A stretch of 64,000 nt of DNA from Novosphingobium sp. (GTDB taxonomy: Bacteria > Pseudomonadota > Alphaproteobacteria > Sphingomonadales > Sphingomonadaceae), in NCBI GenBank assembly GCA_016719755.1, contig JADJYM010000010.1, positions 62,001 to 126,000 on the forward strand. Direction: 5' to 3'. Position 1 is the first letter of the stretch. Each line of letters starts with the position of its first letter. A program made the position numbers and the translations under genes. Below, one piece after another: positions 8,488 to 20,089 of the stretch. The notes beneath the pieces were generated by a model. That model was not told where the DNA came from. It did no database searches and saw nothing but the letters and a program-made list of their open reading frames with translations.

Positions 8488-9459
8488 TCAGCCTGTGCGG
8501 CTGAGTCTCTGGCTTTCCGCTGGGGCCGCTTCCAGGCTGCAGGCGATACGGGCGGCCAGATCGGTGCCCGAACGCCAGGCGCCTTCGATTGCGCCGGGCA
8601 GGCACCAGTCTCCGCAGGCGCCCAGCCGCAGGACCGGATTCCACTGCGCGCCGGCGGTCTGGCCATAGGGCAGGGCAAAGCGCCAGCGGTGGGCTTTGAG
8701 GAAAATGGTTGAGGGCGGCTCGATTCCCGCCTGGGCGGCGAACAGGGCGAGCAACCGTTCCGCCACCGCCTCGCGGTCGCATTCGAGATTGTCGGCGGAC
8801 CACTGCGCGCCGGCCTGGATCACCCAGCATTCGCGGCCGGTCCGCCCCGGCTTGGAGGAGTTGCGTGCAGCCCAGGCAATCGGCCCGGCATCGCGCAGCA
8901 CCGAAGGCACTGCGGCAAGCGGCTGGTCGAAAGCGGCCATGACCGTCCAGCAGGGAGTCGATCGCGCGGCGGCGGCCTCGCGCGCCATGGCCAGATCGTG
9001 GAGCGACAGCAGCGGCGCGGCCTGCTCTGCCGGGGTGGCGACGATCAGCGCGCCGAACGGACCTTCGCGCCAGCCGGGGCCGCTGACTTGCCAGCCATCG
9101 CCGCCATGTTCGATCCGCTGCACCTGCGCGCCGAACCGGACATCGTGCCCGCCGCATTGCGCGGCGACCAGCGTGCTCATCGCGGGCACGCCGACCAGAG
9201 CGCCCTCCGGTCCTTCGGGCCAGGGGGCAATCAGCCCGGCCTGACGCCAGGCGGAGACCTGCGCGGCGAAGGCGCCTTCCCCGGCCAGCAGGAACTGGGC
9301 GCCGAAATCCCACGCCATGCCATCTTCAAGCTGGAGCGACGAAAGACGCCCGCCGGGGCGGCGGCCCTTGTCGAACAGCACCGGTTCATAACCCTGAACC
9401 CGCAGCGCGCCCGCACAGGCCAGCCCGGCCATTCCCGCTCCGACGATAGCGACCTTCAT
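8488..9459 (-). CDS. Renalase-like FAD-dependent amine oxidase family protein
   Basis: A 323-aa flavoprotein of the NAD(P)/FAD-dependent, renalase-like group. The N-terminal dinucleotide-binding motif VAIVGAGMAGLACAGAL (residues 3-19) is followed by the acidic end of the second strand and the PGGRLSS motif, and DFGAQF, all typical. The C-terminal FAD motif is LRLGACGDWCLPGAIEGAW with the SG helix. Bacterial members oxidise isomeric beta-NAD(P)H forms or remain uncharacterised. It is transcribed in the same direction as folE, 20 bp downstream of it, so the two may form an operon. Substrate is unknown. Confidence 0.87.
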   Translation of the reverse strand: MKVAIVGAGMAGLACAGALRVQGYEPVLFDKGRRPGGRLSSLQLEDGMAWDFGAQFLLAGEGAFAAQVSAWRQAGLIAPWPEGPEGALVGVPAMSTLVAAQCGGHDVRFGAQVQRIEHGGDGWQVSGPGWREGPFGALIVATPAEQAAPLLSLHDLAMAREAAAARSTPCWTVMAAFDQPLAAVPSVLRDAGPIAWAARNSSKPGRTGRECWVIQAGAQWSADNLECDREAVAERLLALFAAQAGIEPPSTIFLKAHRWRFALPYGQTAGAQWNPVLRLGACGDWCLPGAIEGAWRSGTDLAARIACSLEAAPAESQRLSRTG

Positions 9460-9479
9460 GACCCGTCCGCCAGATCGTC

Positions 9480-10094
9480 TTAGCCGTGGCCCATCAGCGA
9501 AAGCACTTCCTTGCGGCTGCTCGGATCATCGCGGAAGCAGCCCAGCACCTTGCTGGTCACCATGTCGACCCCATGAGTGCGCACGCCGCGTCCGGTCATG
9601 CAGCCGTGCTGCGCCTTGATCACCACGGCCACGCCCTGGGGGCGCAGGTTGTCCCAGATGCACTGGGCGACATCGGCGGTCAGCCGTTCCTGGATCTGGA
9701 GCCGGTGGGCAAAGCCGTGAAGAACGCGCGCCAGCTTCGAGATGCCGACCACGCGGTCGGTCGGCAGATAGGCGATCGAGGCGGTGCCGGTGATCGGCGC
9801 CAGATGGTGTTCGCAGTGCGACTGAAACGGAATGTCGCGCAGCATCACCACCTCGTCATAGCCGCCCACTTCCTCGAAGGTGCGGCTGAGGTGGATTGCC
9901 GGGTCTTCGCCGTAGCCCGAACAGTATTCCTTCCATGCGCGGCCAACCCGCGCCGGGGTGTCGAGCAGTCCCTCGCGGTCCGGGTCGTCGCCCGCCCAGC
10001 GCAGCAGGGTGCGGACCGCTTCCTGCACTTCGTGCGGGACGGGGGGCTTGGCAGCAGCTGCCTCCGGCACCAGATGGCCGTGCATGATGTTCAT
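9480..10094 (-). CDS. folE: GTP cyclohydrolase I
   Basis: Catalyses GTP to 7,8-dihydroneopterin triphosphate, the first step of tetrahydrofolate (and pterin) synthesis. The 204-aa protein has the zinc-site motif PFQSHCEHHLAPI, the substrate-binding KLARVLHGFAHRLQIQERLT segment and the second zinc region QHGCMTGRGVRTHG, with the family C-terminus SRKEVLSLM. The ATG at 10094 is chosen because AAGGGA lies about 7 nt upstream; the frame continues upstream without a plausible family N-terminus. A second ATG three codons in (10085) is possible. It is divergent from the LOV-HTH gene across a 149-bp spacer, so light could influence it, but this is speculation. Confidence 0.96.
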   Translation of the reverse strand: MNIMHGHLVPEAAAAKPPVPHEVQEAVRTLLRWAGDDPDREGLLDTPARVGRAWKEYCSGYGEDPAIHLSRTFEEVGGYDEVVMLRDIPFQSHCEHHLAPITGTASIAYLPTDRVVGISKLARVLHGFAHRLQIQERLTADVAQCIWDNLRPQGVAVVIKAQHGCMTGRGVRTHGVDMVTSKVLGCFRDDPSSRKEVLSLMGHG

Positions 10095-10243
10095 GGGACT
10101 GTCCCTTTTGCGAGAGTTTTGCCGATCGCCGCATGGGAGGGGGGTTGGGAGCGTGCGGCGACCGGCAAGAACCATCTAGGCTTTACCATTAGTCTCTGCG
10201 ATATGGCCTTACGGGCAGGGATTGCACTGCTGCTGGAGAAACG

Positions 10244-10822
10244 ATGACGCCTGAATCCCTGATTGCCAGCAGCAAGGTTGCCGCCGTGGTCAGCGACCCG
10301 CGCCAGCAGGACAATCCGATCGTTGCCTGCAACGAAGCCTTCATCGAACTAACCGGCTATGCGCGAGAGGAAATCCTTGGGCGCAATTGCCGGTTCCTGC
10401 GCGGCGAACGGACCGAACCGGAACAGACCGCGATGCTGCGCGAAGCGGTCAGCGCCAGCCGCCCGGTGATGGTGGAACTGATCAACTACCGCAAGGATGG
10501 CAGCGCGTTCCGCAACGCGGTGATGATCGCCCCGCTGTTCGACGAGAAGGGCGAGCTGGCCTATTTCCTCGGCTCGCAGATGGCGATCGACGATAGCGGC
10601 GACAGCCGCCATGACCGGGCGCGGGCCCTGGTCGAAGGCTTGAGCCGCCGTCAGCGCCAGATACTCGAAGCGCTGGCCAAGGGGCGGCTCAACAAGCAGA
10701 TCGCCTATGAGCTCGATCTGACCGAGCGGACGATCAAGATGCACCGCGCCGCCATGCTCCGCGCGCTGGGCGTGCGCACCGTGGCCGAGGCGATCCGCAT
10801 CGCGATCGAGGCGGGGCTTTAG
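10244..10822 (+). CDS. LOV-HTH (LuxR-type) blue-light transcription factor, EL222-like
   Basis: A 192-aa protein joining an N-terminal LOV (PAS-type) flavin photosensor (about residues 5-120) to a LuxR-type HTH (about 134-190, SRRQRQILEALAKGRLNKQI). The photoactive cysteine motif GRNCRFLRG places Cys49 where LOV domains form the flavin adduct (consensus GxNCRFLQG; Gln is Arg here). Flavin-contacting Asn81 (NYRKDG), Asn91 and Gln112 (FLGSQ) are all present, so a functional sensor is expected. Architecture and size match EL222 of Erythrobacter litoralis, whose light state dimerises and binds DNA. It lies between folE and the carotenoid genes, which makes light control of pigment synthesis a natural hypothesis. 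ATG is preceded by GGAG at 10233-10236. Confidence 0.93.
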   Translation: MTPESLIASSKVAAVVSDPRQQDNPIVACNEAFIELTGYAREEILGRNCRFLRGERTEPEQTAMLREAVSASRPVMVELINYRKDGSAFRNAVMIAPLFDEKGELAYFLGSQMAIDDSGDSRHDRARALVEGLSRRQRQILEALAKGRLNKQIAYELDLTERTIKMHRAAMLRALGVRTVAEAIRIAIEAGL

Positions 10823-10882: not shown

Positions 10883-12757
10883 TCAGTGCATCCGGCTGAC
10901 AGCGAACCGCGCCAGATCGCGTAGCGGCGTGGCGCGCGCGCCGAACGGGCTGAGCGCTTCCTGGCAGGCGTTTTCCAGCTCGCTCGCCTGACGCGCCGCG
11001 CCTTCGATTCCCAGCAGCGTGGTGGCGCCCTTGCGGCCCGCCGCCTCATCCTTGCGCAGCGCCTTGCCGACCACCTGGGCGTCGCCGATGCTGTCGAGCA
11101 TGTCATCGCGGATCTGGAAAACCAGGCCGAGATTCTCGGCAAAGCGCAGCAGCCGCGCCCGTTCCTCCGCCGAACAGGGGCCGAGCAGCGTGCCAGCCTC
11201 GACTGCAAAGCGGATGAGCGCGCCGGTCTTGCGCGATTCGCATTCGAACATGTCCTGCGCGGATGGTTTGGCGGGCGGATAGAGGTCCATCATCTGCCCC
11301 CCGGCCAGCCCGTCCTGCCCGACCGCGCGGGCAAGGGCGAGCACCAACTGCGCGCGCACGGCGGGATCGGGATGGGTCGGCTCGTCCGCCAGTATTTCGA
11401 ATGCGAGCGCCAGCAGGGCATCCCCGGCCAGCACGGCGGTTGCCTCGTCGAACTTGCGGTGCAGGGTGGGGCGGCCGCGGCGCAGATCGTCATCGTCCAT
11501 GCAGGGCAGGTCGTCGTGGACCAGCGACTGGGCGTGAACGCATTCGATTGCCGCGCCGACCCGCAGCGCCTGGGCGTAGGAGCCGCCGACCAGATCGCTC
11601 ACTGCCGCGACCAGCAAGGCGCGAAACCGCTTGCCGCCGCCGATCGTGGCGTAGCGCATCGCTTCTGCCAGGCGCCGGTCACGCCCCCGCGCATGGCCGA
11701 TCGCACTATCCAGCGCGGCGTCGATATCGGCGCGCAGGCGCGCCAGCCGGTCTTCGAGCGAGCCGCTTTCCGGCGCCGGGTGCAGCGGTTCAAGCGAAAC
11801 CGGCTTGAAGCGGACCTGTTCGGCCAGTCCTTCGGCCTCTTCCAGCACAAATCCCTGCGCCGCCAGCGCGGCGCAAACCGCATCGACCGCGCTGGCCGGA
11901 GTCGATGCCGCGGCGGTCAGGCCAACTGTGGCAGCGCCTGCAAGCAGGTCCAGCGGCAGATCGTCGGCGCCCGCGATCAGGACCGCGTGCGGGGTTCCGG
12001 CCGCTTCGGCCACCTCGGTCAGGCGGCGGGCGTTCGACGACATGACGTCACCCACCACCAGAACCAGATCGCATGACGCGGCAAGCGCTTCCACGGCCTG
12101 CTGGCGATTGGTTGTGGCATAGCAGATGTCGCTGGAACGCGGCGCGGCAACGTCGCGGAAGCGCTCCCGGATCGCGGCGACCATGTCATCGGCATCGCGC
12201 ATCGCGAAGGTGGTCTGCACTGCGTAGGCAACGGCGGAATTGGGCGGCAGGTCCAGCGCTTCAAGGTCCGCTGGCCGCGAGACGACCGAAACGGCACCCG
12301 ATGGCACCTGTCCCAATGTGCCGACAACCTCAGGGTGGCCAAGATGACCGATCAGGAACACGTGGCGGCCCGCGCGGTACCAGCCCTCGACTTCGGCGTG
12401 GACCTTGGCCACCAGCGGGCAGATCGCATCGACCATCCGCAGGCCGCGTGCATCGGCGGCAAGTTTGACCGACCGGGCCGAGCCGTGGGCGGACAGCACT
12501 GCGACCGCGCCTGCTGGAATATCGTCGATTTCCTGCACGAAGACCGCGCCAAGCTGCTCCAGCCGTTCCACCACCGCGCGGTTGTGGACAATCGCGCGGC
12601 GCACGTAAACCGGCGCGCCATGGCGGGACAGGGCCTGTTCCACGGTATCGATCGCACGCTGAACCCCGGCGCAGAACCCGCGCGGATTGGCCAGCAGGAC
12701 CCGCCGCGGCGCCTTGCGTTCTTGCCCGGTTGCCATGGTCATTGAACTTGCAGCCAT
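10883..12757 (-). CDS. Fusion protein: HMBPP reductase (IspH) - polyprenyl diphosphate synthase (GGPP synthase-like)
   Basis: One uninterrupted frame encodes two consecutive isoprenoid enzymes (624 aa). Residues about 19-325 are IspH: Fe-S cysteines C29, C113 and C212, His58, His91, His141, Glu143, Thr182/183, SSN 240-242 and Ser285 all match the catalytic set of E. coli IspH. Residues about 335-624 are a trans-prenyltransferase: GGGKRFR (373-379), first Asp-rich motif DDLPCMD (415-421) and second DDMLD (551-555). Five residues before the first motif there is Gln410, where C15-making E. coli IspA has Tyr; this favours a C20 (GGPP) product for carotenoids. The ATG at 12757 has AGGAAAGG 5 nt upstream; later ATGs at 12742 and 12736 are possible. 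It is divergent from crtI across 101 bp. Confidence 0.9.
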   Translation of the reverse strand: MAASSMTMATGQERKAPRRVLLANPRGFCAGVQRAIDTVEQALSRHGAPVYVRRAIVHNRAVVERLEQLGAVFVQEIDDIPAGAVAVLSAHGSARSVKLAADARGLRMVDAICPLVAKVHAEVEGWYRAGRHVFLIGHLGHPEVVGTLGQVPSGAVSVVSRPADLEALDLPPNSAVAYAVQTTFAMRDADDMVAAIRERFRDVAAPRSSDICYATTNRQQAVEALAASCDLVLVVGDVMSSNARRLTEVAEAAGTPHAVLIAGADDLPLDLLAGAATVGLTAAASTPASAVDAVCAALAAQGFVLEEAEGLAEQVRFKPVSLEPLHPAPESGSLEDRLARLRADIDAALDSAIGHARGRDRRLAEAMRYATIGGGKRFRALLVAAVSDLVGGSYAQALRVGAAIECVHAQSLVHDDLPCMDDDDLRRGRPTLHRKFDEATAVLAGDALLALAFEILADEPTHPDPAVRAQLVLALARAVGQDGLAGGQMMDLYPPAKPSAQDMFECESRKTGALIRFAVEAGTLLGPCSAEERARLLRFAENLGLVFQIRDDMLDSIGDAQVVGKALRKDEAAGRKGATTLLGIEGAARQASELENACQEALSPFGARATPLRDLARFAVSRMH

Positions 12758-12858
12758 AGTCGCCTTTCCTGCCGGCATAGTGCGATTTGCCACGTTTTAA
12801 GCCCATCCGCCCATTCGGACAGGTTGCTCCGGGCGGAGAGTGCCATAAAGAGAGCAAT

Positions 12859-14433
12859 ATGGAACACCCTATCTCCGCGTCCGGCAAAATGGCACCGACT
12901 GTGGAGGGCGGCCAGTCCGTCCCGGGCAGCGGCGCGGCTCCGGGGGGCGGCTCATCCTCGGCGATCGTGATCGGTTCGGGGTTCGGCGGTCTGGCTCTGG
13001 CGATCCGCCTGCAAAGCGCCGGGATTGCCACCACCGTGGTCGAGGCGCGCGACCGTCCCGGCGGGCGGGCCTATGTCTGGAACCGCGATGGCTTCACGTT
13101 CGATGCCGGTCCAACCGTCATCACCGATCCCGATTGCCTGAAAGAACTGTGGGCCCTGTCGGGCAGCCGGATCGAGGACGATGTCGACCTGCTTCCGGTG
13201 CAGCCGTTCTACCGCCTGCTGTGGAACGACGGCACCCGCTTCGAATACACCAACGACGATGCGCTGCTGAACGCCGAGATCGCCCGGCTCAACCCGGCCG
13301 ATGTCGATGGCTATGCCCGGTTCCTCGAGTATTCCAAGGGGGTGTACGAGGAAGGCTACCTCAAGCTGGGGGCGGTGCCGTTCCTCGATTTCGCATCGAT
13401 GCTGAAAGCCGCGCCGGCGCTGGCGAAATACCAGGCCTGGCAGTCGGTCTATTCAAAGGTGGCGAGCTTTGTGAAGGATGATCGGCTGCGTCAGGCCTTT
13501 TCCTTCCACACCCTGCTGGTCGGCGGGAACCCGATGAAGACCAGCAGCATCTATGCCCTGATCCACCGGCTGGAGAAGCTGGGCGGGGTGTGGTTCGCGC
13601 GTGGCGGCACCAATGCGCTGGTCAGCGGCATGGTCGCGCTGTTCGAGCGGCTGGGCGGCAAGCTTCTGCTGGGGGAAAAGGTCATCCAGATCACGCCTTC
13701 GGGGCAGCGCGTTTCGGGCGTGGTCACGCATACCGGCCGCGTGCTCAATGCCGACATGGTCTGCAGCAACGGCGATCTGGTCCACACCTATGGCCTGATC
13801 AAGGCTTCGGACTATGCCGCGAAGAAAGTCCGGCGGCTGAAGCGCAAGAAGTTTTCGCCCAGCCTGTTCGTGGTCCACTTCGGGCTGAAGGGCACGTTCC
13901 CCGGCATCGCCCACCACTCGATCCTGTTTTCGGACCGCTATGGGCCGTTGATCGATGACATCTACAAGCACGGCAAGCTGGCGGCCGATCCGTCGCTTTA
14001 CCTCCATCACCCCAGCGTGACCGATCCGTCGATGGCGCCGGAAGGGCACTCGACGTTCTATGCGCTGGCGCCCGTGCCGCACATGGGTACGGCCCCGGTC
14101 GACTGGGAGGTTGAAGGCCAGCGCTACCGGGACGTGGTGCTGGGCCGGGTGCGCGACATGCTGATCCCCGATCTCGACGAGCGGCTTGTCACCTGTTTCC
14201 ACTATACGCCCCAGGACTTCGCCGACGATCTGGGCGCCCATCTGGGCAGCGCTTTCAGCCTTGAGCCGTTGCTGACGCAAAGCGCGTGGTTCCGCGGGCA
14301 CAACCGCGACGATCACTATTCCAACCTCTACTTCGTCGGCGCGGGCACTCATCCGGGCGCGGGCATTCCCGGCGTGGTGGGCAGCGCCAAGGCAACCGCC
14401 AGCCTGATTGTGCAACCGCACAATCAGGCGTAG
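12859..14433 (+). CDS. crtI: Phytoene desaturase
   Basis: FAD-dependent desaturase converting phytoene to lycopene in four steps at the membrane (524 aa). After an unusual Gly/Ser-rich N-terminal extension of about 34 residues, the FAD motif AIVIGSGFGGLALAIRL (35-51), the PGGRAYVW segment and DAGPTVITDP follow as in bacterial CrtI. The C-terminal bacterial-type phytoene dehydrogenase signature is YFVGAGTHPGAGIPGVVGSA. The ATG at 12859 has the weak purine tract AAGAGAG upstream. crtZ follows with at most 9 nt between, so both are probably one transcript. The last codons form a 12-bp hairpin (see separate entry). Confidence 0.97.
   Translation: MEHPISASGKMAPTVEGGQSVPGSGAAPGGGSSSAIVIGSGFGGLALAIRLQSAGIATTVVEARDRPGGRAYVWNRDGFTFDAGPTVITDPDCLKELWALSGSRIEDDVDLLPVQPFYRLLWNDGTRFEYTNDDALLNAEIARLNPADVDGYARFLEYSKGVYEEGYLKLGAVPFLDFASMLKAAPALAKYQAWQSVYSKVASFVKDDRLRQAFSFHTLLVGGNPMKTSSIYALIHRLEKLGGVWFARGGTNALVSGMVALFERLGGKLLLGEKVIQITPSGQRVSGVVTHTGRVLNADMVCSNGDLVHTYGLIKASDYAAKKVRRLKRKKFSPSLFVVHFGLKGTFPGIAHHSILFSDRYGPLIDDIYKHGKLAADPSLYLHHPSVTDPSMAPEGHSTFYALAPVPHMGTAPVDWEVEGQRYRDVVLGRVRDMLIPDLDERLVTCFHYTPQDFADDLGAHLGSAFSLEPLLTQSAWFRGHNRDDHYSNLYFVGAGTHPGAGIPGVVGSAKATASLIVQPHNQA
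14402..14429. promoter_or_regulatory. Perfect 12-bp hairpin at the crtI/crtZ junction
   Basis: GCCTGATTGTGC (14402-14413) and GCACAATCAGGC (14418-14429) are exact reverse complements with a 4-nt AACC loop. The hairpin is encoded by the final codons of crtI and ends 2 nt before its stop and 7 to 13 nt before the crtZ start. It lacks a T-tract, so it is not a standard terminator; control of crtZ translation or mRNA processing is possible. Confidence 0.75.
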
Positions 14434-14442
14434 ACGGTGGCC

Positions 14443-14946
14443 ATGGAAGGTTTGCCGCTGATCGCCATTTTCCTGGGCACCGTGCTGGGCATGGAACTGT
14501 TCGCCTATGCGATGCATCGCTGGGTGATGCATGGCCCGGGCTGGTTCCTTCACGCCAGCCACCACCGCGAACGGCACGGGCCGTTTGAATGGAATGACCT
14601 GTACGCCGCGATCTTCGCGATCCCCTCGATCGCGATGTTCTGGCTGGGCGAGCGCGGGGGCTGGGGACCGTCAGCCACTGCCGTGGGGGCGGGGATCGCC
14701 GCCTATGGCGCGATCTATTTCGGCTTCCATGACTGGATCGTCCACCGCCGCCTGCCGCACCGGATCGTGCCGCGCTCGGCCTATTTCCGGCGGATCGTTC
14801 AGGCTCACCGCCTGCACCATGTGGTCGAGAGTCGTCAGGGTGCGGTCAGCTTTGGCTTTCTGTGGGCGCCGCCGTTGGAACAGCTCCACGCGCAGCTGCG
14901 CCGTTCGCAAACCGCCGAGCTGCGCAGGCCGTCGCGTCAGGACTGA
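14443..14946 (+). CDS. crtZ: Beta-carotene hydroxylase (di-iron, fatty acid hydroxylase superfamily)
   Basis: Hydroxylates the beta-ionone rings of beta-carotene at C3 to give zeaxanthin. The 167-aa membrane protein has the four His clusters of CrtZ: HRWVMH, HASHHRERH, HDWIVHRR and HRLHH, and three to four hydrophobic helices. ATG at 14443 is chosen; a GTG two codons upstream (14437) is equally compatible. Transcribed with crtI. Its 3' end overlaps by about 10 bp the restored 3' end of the convergent crtB. Confidence 0.95.
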   Translation: MEGLPLIAIFLGTVLGMELFAYAMHRWVMHGPGWFLHASHHRERHGPFEWNDLYAAIFAIPSIAMFWLGERGGWGPSATAVGAGIAAYGAIYFGFHDWIVHRRLPHRIVPRSAYFRRIVQAHRLHHVVESRQGAVSFGFLWAPPLEQLHAQLRRSQTAELRRPSRQD

Positions 14947-15859
14947 CGGGGCCGGGTCCAGAGCCCGTCGCGCGAAGTTGCCTCAGGAGCTGAAAGGCTG
15001 CGCAGCATCGCTTGCCCCAGCAGCAGGATTTTTCCTCCGCCGCTGACCCGTACGCGTTCGTCCCAGGCGTGGGTGCCGCGCGCCAGGACTTTTTCCCCGA
15101 TAGTGCCATAGATCGCATCGGCGGCCAGCACCGCCAGCCGCCAGGCAGGCGCGCCGCGCCGACCCGCGCCGAACGGCGATAAGGCCGCGCCATCTCCACC
15201 AGCCGCGCCGCCAGCGCGGCGAGCGCGGGGAGGGCCTGCGGATCGGCCAGACGGCCCGCATCCAGCCCCGCCGCATCCAGCCATTCGGCCGGAAGATAGC
15301 AGCGTCCGGCGTGGGCATCGGGCACCACATCGCGCGCGATGTTGGCCAGCTGGAAGGCAAGGCCAAGATCGCAGGCGCGGTCAAGCGTGTCCTCGTCCTG
15401 CGGCGAAACCCCCATCACCACCGCCATCATGCAGCCGACCGTTCCGGCAACGTGATAGCAATAGCGCAGCAGATCATCCCCGCTCTGCGGCTGCCAGCCC
15501 GCCGCGTCGAGCGCGAAGCCGGCCAGATGATCCTCGATAAAGCGGGCGGGCATGGCCGTTTCGTGGGCCACCGCGCGCAGGGCGGCAAACGGCAGGGGGA
15601 CCTCTTCCCCACTGTAGAGCGCCAGCGCGGTCAGCGCCTCCAGCCGGGCCTGGGCGGCAGCCGGATCGTCCAGCGCGCTGGCGCCGTGGCCCAGTTCCTG
15701 CCCGTCGGTCATGTCATCGGCGGCGCGGCACCAGGCATAGAGCAGCCAGGCCCGCTCGCGCGTTGCGGGCGCGAACAGCTTGCTGGCTGCGGCAAAGCTT
15801 TGCGAGCCTTGCGCGATGGTATCGCGCGCGGCGGCGACCAGGGCGGCGCGATCGCTCAT
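14937..15859 (-). pseudogene. crtB: Phytoene synthase with an internal one-base frameshift
   Basis: Head-to-head condensation of two GGPP to phytoene. The start is intact (15859; overlaps the crtY stop by 4 bp) and the first about 238 residues show the squalene/phytoene synthase signatures DDMTD (first Asp-rich motif, about residue 49), YCYHVAGTVGCMM and QLANIARDV..D (second). After SARVGAARLP the expected C-terminus leaves the frame: the typical continuation WRLAVLAADAIYGTIGEKV is found in the next frame to a stop at 14937. One missing base near 15143-15145 explains this exactly (restored length about 307 aa). As written, translation would continue in the wrong frame to 14846, an abnormal 337-aa protein. 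Either a real mutation or a sequence error; all other pathway genes are intact, which favours error. Confidence 0.85.
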
Positions 15860-17001
15860 CCCAGCAACGCCTTCAGCGCGGCGCCGATGCTCACCGGCGG
15901 GCGGCCGGAAAGGATGCGCATCCGGTCCAGAGCGGTCAGTTGTCCGGCGTAGAAGCGGGCGATCCGTTGAGGCGGAAGGCGATAGAAATGGGCGAAGACG
16001 CGCCAGCGCTCCTCGGGCCGGGCGGCGCGGAACAGCATCCGGTTGAGCATCCGGAAATAGCGCGTCTCGCGCCAGTGGCGCAGGAACCTCTCGCGCGTCC
16101 AGCGAGCCAGCTCCGCTCCGGTGAAATCGCCTTCAAGCATCGACAGTTCGTCCGCCAGGCGCAGCGCCAGGCTGAAGGAATAGCCAGTGGTGGCGTGGAA
16201 GAACCCGCCCGCCAGCCCCAACCGCGCGACGGGATCTTCGGCGGGCCAGAACCGTTGTGGATCGCCGCCGATCAGGATCGGCAGGACGCCCGTTTCCCGG
16301 CGCAGCTCATAGCCGCCAAGGCCGCGCTCCGCCGCGAGCGCGCGAACCCGCCGCGCCACTTCGTCGCCATCCAGGTCGGGCGCATCGCTGTAATAGGTAT
16401 CCTCCACCAGCACCCGGTCCGGCCCGAACGGCAGGACATAGACAAAGCGATAGCCGTCGATCTGGGGCAGGCAGGCATCCATCACGGTCGCGCAGTCAGG
16501 TTCGGGGGCAGCGGCTTCGAATTCGATCCCGACGAATTTCTGCCAGCCCAGGTCCAGCCCCGGCATGGCTCCGTGCGGGCCGCGCGCGTCGATCACGCCG
16601 CGCGCGGCGATCCACTCGCCGTCCGCCAGTTCGATCCCTTCGGCCGTGATCCGCGCGGCGCGGGCGCCAAGCCGCAGCGCGCTTTGCGGCAGACGTGCGC
16701 GCACCAGCGCATCCAGCGCGGGCGCGGCGATGGAGTTGTAAGCCACGGCCAGTTCGCGCTCGCGCCCCGGAAACCGCACCCGGTGGCGCGGCCAGCGCAC
16801 CGGGCGCAACGATGCGACAAGGGCTTGCGATCCGGCCGGCACGTCGCTGTCGAAGAACGACCAGGTGTGGTTGCCGCCGATCGTTTTGCCCGCATCGACC
16901 AGCAGTAGCGGCAGTTCGGGGCGCCGTTCGGCCAGCCGCACGGCGGCAAGCGCGCCAGCCAGCCCGCCACCAACGATCACCAGGGGCAGCGTGCTGCTCA
17001 T
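15856..17001 (-). CDS. crtY: Lycopene beta-cyclase (CrtY type)
   Basis: Flavoprotein cyclising both ends of lycopene to give beta-carotene (381 aa, normal length). The N-terminal dinucleotide-binding motif VIVGGGLAGALAAVRL (residues 8-23), the family motif NHTWSFFDSD and the cyclase motif FVYVLPFGPDRVLVEDTYYSD are present, with the C-terminal FHATTGYSFSLALRLAD segment. It precedes crtB in the transcript and overlaps it by 4 bp, giving a crtYB operon convergent with crtIZ. Confidence 0.96.
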   Translation of the reverse strand: MSSTLPLVIVGGGLAGALAAVRLAERRPELPLLLVDAGKTIGGNHTWSFFDSDVPAGSQALVASLRPVRWPRHRVRFPGRERELAVAYNSIAAPALDALVRARLPQSALRLGARAARITAEGIELADGEWIAARGVIDARGPHGAMPGLDLGWQKFVGIEFEAAAPEPDCATVMDACLPQIDGYRFVYVLPFGPDRVLVEDTYYSDAPDLDGDEVARRVRALAAERGLGGYELRRETGVLPILIGGDPQRFWPAEDPVARLGLAGGFFHATTGYSFSLALRLADELSMLEGDFTGAELARWTRERFLRHWRETRYFRMLNRMLFRAARPEERWRVFAHFYRLPPQRIARFYAGQLTALDRMRILSGRPPVSIGAALKALLG

Positions 17002-17098
17002 CGTCCCTGTCTAGCCTGCCTGCGGGCAAATGCCAGTTTCCTGAAAGGACAGGCCGCGCGGTCTATCGCTGGCGGCCCGCTGGCCCTAGAATAGGTAT

Positions 17099-17539
17099 AT
17101 GTCGCGTCTTGACCTTGCCGCTCTCGCAGCCCTGCTGTGGTCGAGCCCCTCGCTTGCCGAAACCGCTCCGGCGGCTTCGCTGGAAATCACCGTCACCGGG
17201 GCCAGGGCTGCCACCGGCCTGATCCGGGTGGCGCTCTGCCCCGCCGGTGCGAAGTTTCCGGACTGCGGAGCCAGGGCGGTCCGCACTGTCAGCGTGCCGG
17301 TAAGCGGTGGGGGCGGCAAGGTGGTGCTGACCGGGCTGATCCCCGGCGCCTATGCGGTCAGCGTGTTCCACGATGCCAATTCGAACGGCAAGCTGGACAC
17401 CTTCGCCGGGATCCCGCGCGAAGGCTATGGATTCTCGCGCAACCCGCCGTTCAGGCCGCGCGCGCCGCGCTTCAACGAAGCGGAGATCGCGATTTCCGGG
17501 GAATCGCACGCGGGAATCAAGCTGAAGTACATTCTCTGA
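17099..17539 (+). CDS. DUF2141 secreted protein
   Basis: A 146-aa exported protein of the DUF2141 family. A signal peptide (residues 1-20, ending SLA) precedes a beta-rich domain with the family core LIPGAYAVSVFHDANSNGKLDTF, and PREGYGFSRNP, then a C-terminal strand. The function of the family is unknown; it is frequently encoded beside carotenoid or membrane-lipid genes. Divergent from crtY (97 bp). Confidence 0.88.
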   Translation: MSRLDLAALAALLWSSPSLAETAPAASLEITVTGARAATGLIRVALCPAGAKFPDCGARAVRTVSVPVSGGGGKVVLTGLIPGAYAVSVFHDANSNGKLDTFAGIPREGYGFSRNPPFRPRAPRFNEAEIAISGESHAGIKLKYIL

Positions 17540-17671
17540 AGCCCGGGATGGCGCAGGCCATCCACAGCGCAGCGACGCGGCGGGATTGCAACGGGGGCGG
17601 ACAACCCCATATCCCGAAGCAAAGCCGGGATTGACCCGGACGGCCCACAGGGCCGGATTGGATGGATTGAC

Positions 17672-20089
<2,418 letters not shown>

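Follow-up and report, generated by a model that had tools for sequence, protein, structure and literature searches.

A single gene in the window, the 64,000-nucleotide stretch of Novosphingobium sp. DNA analysed here, encodes IspH and a prenyl diphosphate synthase as one polypeptide (10883..12757, minus strand), and this fusion is real and conserved. Judging from its motifs, relatives and neighbours, it is probably a bifunctional HMBPP reductase/GGPP synthase dedicated to carotenoid synthesis, extra to the housekeeping ispH and ispA. In the N-terminal half, IspH would bind a [4Fe-4S] cluster through three Cys and convert HMBPP into IPP and DMAPP, and the C-terminal IspA-type half, with Gln in place of the aromatic chain-stop residue, would condense both into GGPP. 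CrtB of the same cluster would then turn GGPP into phytoene.

The minus strand is open from a GTG at 12793 to the stop at 10883 without an internal stop, and the plus strand of 10883-12757 contains stops. Translation from the ATG at 12757 gives a protein of 624 aa, and from the in-frame upstream GTG one of 636 aa; the ATG is the likely start because the relative G466 has a Met at the matching site in the alignment of fused proteins. Domain bounds are numbered here from the GTG, and residues quoted by a previous sequence-only reading of this DNA from the ATG (Gln422 in the former is Gln410 in the latter). That reading had placed IspH and a prenyl synthase in one polypeptide, which was borne out by one open frame with both Pfam domains complete. 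Taken singly, the two halves are typical of their families. The IspH (LytB) domain spans residues 32-310 (11864..12700, minus strand; Pfam LYTB PF02401, E 1.2e-81, 274.3 bits against a cut-off of 24.5) and also matches NCBIfam TIGR00216 (278.8 against 187.85 bits). In IspH, three Cys are the cluster ligands and active-site His, Glu, Thr, Ser and Asn residues have catalytic roles. Alignment with solved IspH chains showed the three Cys, three His, Glu, Thr, SSN and Ser all in place, and every catalytic residue quoted earlier (ATG numbering: C29/C113/C212, H58, H91, H141, E143, S240-S-N242, S285) was found at its position. The short-chain prenyl diphosphate synthase domain covers residues 374-611 (10961..11674, minus strand; Pfam polyprenyl_synt PF00348, E 9.3e-50, 169.6 against 27 bits) and has relatives in the PDB. 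Its first Asp-rich motif, DDLPCMD, starts at D415 (11495..11515), its second, DDMLD, at D551 (11093..11107), and Gln410 is the fifth residue before the first motif (11528..11530; all minus strand), again as quoted. Pfam gives LYTB and polyprenyl_synt only, with neither an S1 domain nor a UbiA membrane prenyltransferase domain in the fusion, and the model for IspH fused to ribosomal protein S1, NF000907, scores 200.8 against a cut-off of 624. A variable linker at about residues 320-345 (11759..11836, minus strand) lies between the final strand of IspH, as modelled, and the helix that follows. The linker is short and differs among the 17 aligned fusions, which have no Met in common there, so the synthase is unlikely to be started separately from an ATG of its own.

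Searches for relatives yielded 16 additional fused sequences, of which one is carried by a plasmid and the other 15 come from further genomes, making 17 in all with the window; pooling the overlapping samples gave 16 fused genomes from five genus codes. The fusion is rare. With the whole protein as query, the family sample had it in 4 of 298 genomes, the genus in 12 of 195 and the order sample in 5 of 396, and the single hits in the class (1/385) and phylum (1/249) samples were both the window's own genome; the threshold in the genus, order, class and phylum searches was E 1e-95, at which very divergent fusions would be missed. Within the genus, the G421 sequence ends at a contig edge, and four more genomes above the threshold had one half only. 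A contig search revealed one fused locus (L036) among the best 80 of at least 597 relatives (at least 598 stretches). Of 316 matching plasmids, one covers 80% of the query, the complete plasmid pKN1 of Sphingobium yanoikuyae (NZ_CP115457.1), where the fusion is one CDS annotated as ispH only, and none of 31 matching phage records covers 80%. Could assembly or sequencing errors have joined two adjacent genes? The two genes are adjacent in different frames in G168, G257 and G289, where one indel could join them, and the window's crtB looks frameshifted, but 16 more sequences, down to 58% identity and including the complete plasmid with its one CDS, keep both halves in one frame, and we rejected an artefact as having a negligible chance of being correct. 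Suspected in-frame stops in G412 and G323 were likewise dismissed; they lie upstream of the first Met, and both frames read through both domains.

When the 17 fusions are aligned, the motifs of IspH and the two Asp-rich motifs prove conserved, except for changes in G392 and G597 and the missing C-terminal part of G421. Comparison of the window with six relatives gave dN/dS values of 0.11-0.19 for the IspH half, 0.07-0.18 for the synthase half and 0.18-0.53 for residues 330-352 between the domains. Two of three other pairs gave 0.05-0.12, and the very close G322/G316 pair, with few changes, gave 0.44 and 0.18. Both halves are under purifying selection.

To what extent the fusion adds to existing enzymes was evident from a profile search of the window's genome (G000, 16 contigs). 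A second PF02401 gene is a stand-alone ispH with a 331-aa frame (C4:107152-107982), and a stand-alone IspA-type PF00348 gene has a 303-aa frame (contig position C15:650725-651450) and scores 299 against 275 bits with the FPPsyn model. A further PF00348 gene (C10:59098-59826), whose best NCBIfam model is octaprenyl diphosphate synthase (326 against a cut-off of 412), would by inference be of the long-chain type. The sequence-only reading had proposed looking for a separate ispH and ispA elsewhere in the genome, and with both present, at C4:107152 and C15:650725, the fusion is an extra copy. Of the 16 fused genomes, 15 have a separate ispH match (split in G466 into two pieces on two contigs); the one without such a match, G392, is 82% complete.

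Extra ispH genes are not confined to fused loci. At least two PF02401 matches (E up to 1e-30) were present in 34 of 298 family genomes, as counted by eye. In G414, G597, G182, G485, G043 and G294 (L256-L261), a further ispH copy adjoins hopanoid genes identified with NCBIfam: HpnH is above its cut-off beside it in all of these except G294, and squalene-hopene cyclase in G414, G597, G182 and G294, the cyclase in G485 being cut at the stretch end. In some sphingomonads, product clusters have an ispH copy of their own. We considered that such a copy might replace the absent IspH half in G182, G414 and G485 or compensate for the Glu-to-Gln half in G597, and dropped this idea because G043 and G294, from the same genus as G182, have that ispH in a like hopanoid context.

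The IspH half itself shows catalytic-site changes in 2 of the 17 fusions. The catalytic Glu is replaced by Gln in G597 and the second His by Leu in G392 (loci L155 8932-10815 and L144 4008-6074, respectively); both sequences keep the Asp-rich motifs of the synthase half. These substitutions, the separate IspH in 15 of 16 carriers and a sensing role suggested for IspH in IspH-RPS1 (PMC4746011) would suit an IspH half that serves as a redox or oxygen sensor or as a stabiliser on the prenyl synthase, having lost its enzymatic role or having gained another beside it. We regard this as quite improbable, given that 15 of 17 fusions keep the catalytic set and that selection on the IspH half is purifying. 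Moreover, crt-linked IspH stands alone in G297, G186 and G356, pointing to a demand for the activity itself, and extra ispH is also kept in the hopanoid clusters of some sphingomonads.

For the synthase half, product length is the central question. An aromatic residue at position -5 of the first Asp-rich motif stops the chain at C15, and a non-aromatic residue there is expected of a GGPP synthase. Gln occupies this position in every one of the 17 fusions and in five stand-alone synthases (G182, G485, G414, G168 and G257), and His in that of G289. Family IspA-type sequences carry Tyr (22 of 24) or Phe (2 of 24, one being the IspA-type gene of the window's own genome), and class sequences carry Tyr throughout (20/20). 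Among solved chains, GGPP synthase 7mxz has Met, and four others that were compared have Tyr. The replacement of the aromatic residue by Gln in every fusion suggests a C20 product.

Profile models and structural relatives gave a less uniform picture. The only NCBIfam synthase model passed by the fusion is FPPsyn (NF045485), by 0.6 bits (275.6 against 275), and with the CrtE model NF045685 it scores 235.3 against a cut-off of 460 bits; the IspA-type gene of the same genome scores above the fusion on both (299 bits with FPPsyn, 247 with CrtE). Since none of 115 class genomes passes the CrtE model, this model is narrow and the failure of the fusion tells little. NCBIfam models separate FPP from GGPP synthases poorly and leave the choice between C15 and C20 undecided. 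The best PDB relative, 4kkm, is named polyprenyl synthetase, and many other chains are named geranyltranstransferase or farnesyl diphosphate synthase. Both the FPPsyn score and these names would fit a synthase half that makes FPP, in which case the fusion would raise the general C15 supply and another enzyme would feed phytoene synthase; the crt-bearing genomes G297 and G186 have just two PF00348 genes each, so carotenoid loci can manage without the fusion enzyme. FPP as the product nonetheless seems unlikely to us. The invariant Gln is set against Tyr or Phe at -5 in the IspA-type genes read from 15 fused genomes (the sixteenth, G382, is 80% complete and yielded no such gene), the synthase halves form a separate clade located mostly at crt loci, and the missed CrtE cut-off has little meaning. 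GGPP thus remains the product that we favour for the fusion.

The crt genes that had been noticed next to the fusion were confirmed by Pfam and NCBIfam profiles for crtI, crtB and crtY and, for the crtZ-like gene, through a homologue. Divergent from the fusion lies crtI, encoding phytoene desaturase (12859..14433, plus strand, in-frame ATG start assumed; TIGR02734 above cut-off). The following gene (14437..14946, plus strand) presumably encodes a crtZ-like beta-carotene hydroxylase, a name that comes partly from general knowledge; the protein has no Pfam or NCBIfam match of its own, and its L141 homologue (75% identity) matches FA_hydroxylase above cut-off. On the minus strand follow crtB, encoding phytoene synthase (14846..15859; SQS_PSY above cut-off), and crtY, encoding lycopene beta-cyclase (15856..17001; TIGR01789 above cut-off). 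crtB has an apparent frameshift near residue 240: the match to the CrtB model NF042419 is below cut-off and ends at 239, and the tail runs on in another frame; L140 and L145 have both pieces in one frame. This is apparently a sequencing error or a recent mutation, and because crtB looks frameshifted, carotenoid production by this strain is uncertain. Next to crtY, a 374-aa ORF (17063-18187, minus strand) showed no Pfam or NCBIfam match; homologues are located near crtY in L140 (58%) and, as partial sequences, in L141, L142, L143 and L145.

Convergent with the fusion is a gene for a PAS-LuxR regulator, probably of the LOV-HTH type (10244..10822, plus strand; PAS_9 and GerE above cut-off). LOV models are among its best NCBIfam matches, below their own cut-offs, and we take its GRNCRFL to be the LOV motif. 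Beyond this gene lie genes for FolE (GTP cyclohydrolase I) and an amine-oxidase-type flavoprotein (8488-10175, minus strand); near the other fused loci, the flavoprotein was found in 8 of 16 and FolE in 2 of 16. Including the window, crtI is near the fusion in 16 of 17 loci (15 of 16 others in the stretch retrieved), within 202 bp in 14 of the other loci and at 2.5 kb in G008. It is on the strand opposite to the fusion except in G597, where both share a strand, and is absent from the stretch of G482, a locus at a contig end. A LOV-HTH homologue is present near 13 of 17 fusions (12 of 16 others), the match in G085 covering residues 81-192 only. In the stretches retrieved from G376, G322, G316, pKN1, G085 and G597, there was no match to crtY, crtB or crtZ. 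Loci L128, L146, L147 and L149, one of them on a megaplasmid, have a crtI–fusion–LOV-HTH unit with no crtY, crtB or crtZ match in the stretch. This unit may be a mobile booster cassette.

The intergenic region between the divergent crtI and fusion genes contains a conserved box, CCCATTCGGACAGGTTG (12810..12826, plus strand). Upstream of the fusion, 13 of 17 loci have a 13-base form, TTNGGACANGTNG, which G061, G008, G482 and G597 lack; its expectation after mononucleotide shuffling was 0.005 per set, in a test that is not independent as the loci are related. Within the genome, CCNWTTSGGACAGGTTG has a single exact match, which is the intergenic box. Allowing up to two mismatches gave 31 genomic matches compared to 10 for the reversed control, a moderate enrichment. 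Nine of the 30 inexact matches were inspected (L263-L271), of which eight lie inside called ORFs and L269 in none, and no regulon emerged from the 31 matches on this inspection. Exact copies of TTNGGACAGGTTG are also found beside crtI in L119 (G071) and L154 (G356). The conserved box is a candidate operator, possibly for the LOV-HTH-type regulator, through which the fusion might come under light control.

How the fusion arose was approached with trees of both halves. The tree of synthase sequences, with 60 rows and without G421, places 16 fused halves and the stand-alone synthases of G182, G485 and G414 in a clade with support of 100/100, apart from the family IspA. The label 'fused' needs three changes on this tree, G182 and G485 each standing beside fused rows with starred support, and the synthases of two-gene pairs branch next to the fused clade with weak support. 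The stand-alone synthases of G182 and G414 are in crt loci, and the stretch retrieved for G485 had no crt match. The tree of IspH sequences (71 rows, built by a quick method, with 18 loci chosen from the best 80 related ones) unites the fused halves with the two-gene pairs and with further crt- or LOV-linked copies in a clade (SH-aLRT 99) apart from housekeeping IspH. A sub-clade (96) holds all fused halves and four synthase-less IspH copies, those of G356, G470, L037 and, truncated, G071; no crt or LOV match was found at the L037 locus. Here 'fused' needs four changes; neither tree gathers the fused sequences into a single clade of their own. Because relatives carry one half, namely the synthase alone (G182, G485, G414), IspH alone (G356, G470) or a truncated IspH (G071), the fusion is dispensable. 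In G071, the truncated IspH part is next to crtI (L119 9185-9979), and the stretch shows no synthase match.

Two-gene homologues in close relatives had been named by the sequence-only reading as evidence against a fusion. Such pairs do exist in the more distant genera of G168, G257 and G289, and the nearest sequences found are fused. In these three pairs, which were noticed among the retrieved loci and are not a count, the genes are adjacent and in different frames, with the second ATG overlapping the first stop by one base in G168 and as ATGA in G289, and following two bases behind it in G257. Their neighbours include crtYIB in G257 and G289 and a LOV-HTH homologue in G168. Most likely, the fusion goes back to neighbouring ispH2 and crtE genes in the crt locus of a sphingomonad, probably coupled in translation, which merged into a single frame and would then have travelled with crtI and the LOV-HTH-type regulator, also onto a plasmid. 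The trees fit one fusion followed by loss of either half; separate fusions are possible.

As IspH is generally regarded as a monomer and IspA-type synthases as dimers, the fusion would be expected to form a dimer that carries two IspH heads. An AF2 model (from the window, L036 and 18 IspH sequences) gave a well-modelled IspH half and a poorly modelled synthase (pTM 0.52). The gain from fusing would be a fixed 1:1 supply and local IPP and DMAPP, which does not imply true channelling. A more far-reaching version of the HMBPP-to-GGPP enzyme, which we put forward tentatively and consider doubtful, is that IPP and DMAPP from the iron-sulfur site reach the condensing site of the same dimer before they mix with the cell pool, and that the fusion, crtI and a blue-light regulator move together as a transferable cassette that feeds carotenoid synthesis. 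The natural series of two genes, fused genes and loci with one half lost allows the benefit of the fusion to be tested, and for metabolic engineering the protein is a ready-made two-domain part. It joins the last MEP pathway step and the first chain-building step in one natural polypeptide.

Previous studies leave a place for such an enzyme in sphingomonads. In a survey of 41 Sphingomonadales strains, crtE is reported never to have co-occurred with another crt ORF (PMC5989583), and the fusion is a possible GGPP source for such strains; the words ispH, lytB, fusion and fused are absent from the text of that survey. For two sphingomonads, a GGPP synthase could not be annotated, according to PMC9967899. 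Two ispH copies are recorded for Sphingomonas nostoxanthinifaciens in PMC9950776, a paper in which the words fusion and fused do not occur. Likewise, ispH and fusion are absent as words from PMC10734531 and PMC12210278, and ispH, lytB, fusion and fused from PMC3380023. The literature searched, consisting of titles and abstract openings of the papers listed, with subscription journals mostly outside its scope, reported no IspH–prenyl diphosphate synthase fusion.

Known IspH fusions differ from the one described here mainly in their partner. The portions of PMC4746011 available list RPS1, UbiA, CMP kinase, helicase, FBPase and UDP/PNP phosphorylase as partners, among which a soluble prenyl diphosphate synthase is absent. 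The sequence-only reading, which named the RPS1 fusion, was too short in its account of known fusions, as fusions with a UbiA-type prenyltransferase and others were already in print. Prenyl diphosphate synthase is a new partner within the known kind of IspH fusion, with no description found in the literature searched. IspH-UbiA of Desulfobacterales (PMC4746011) likewise has an N-terminal IspH fused to a downstream prenyl-handling enzyme. UbiA, however, is a membrane aromatic prenyltransferase, whereas the partner here is an all-trans prenyl diphosphate synthase that would use the IspH products directly, and that fusion is from another bacterial group, while the present one is crt-linked. IspH-RPS1 (PMC4746011; NF000907) shares the N-terminal IspH and a protein of about twice the usual size, but has S1 repeats in place of a synthase. 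Among separate enzymes, stand-alone CrtE/GGPP synthases of carotenoid clusters have in common with the synthase half the crt neighbourhood, the Asp-rich motifs and a non-aromatic residue before the first motif; in contrast to these, it is fused to IspH and falls below the NCBIfam CrtE cut-off. The closest sequence family is the IspA-type FPP synthase of sphingomonads, which differs in its Tyr or Phe at -5, its separate gene and its place outside the clade of fused halves.
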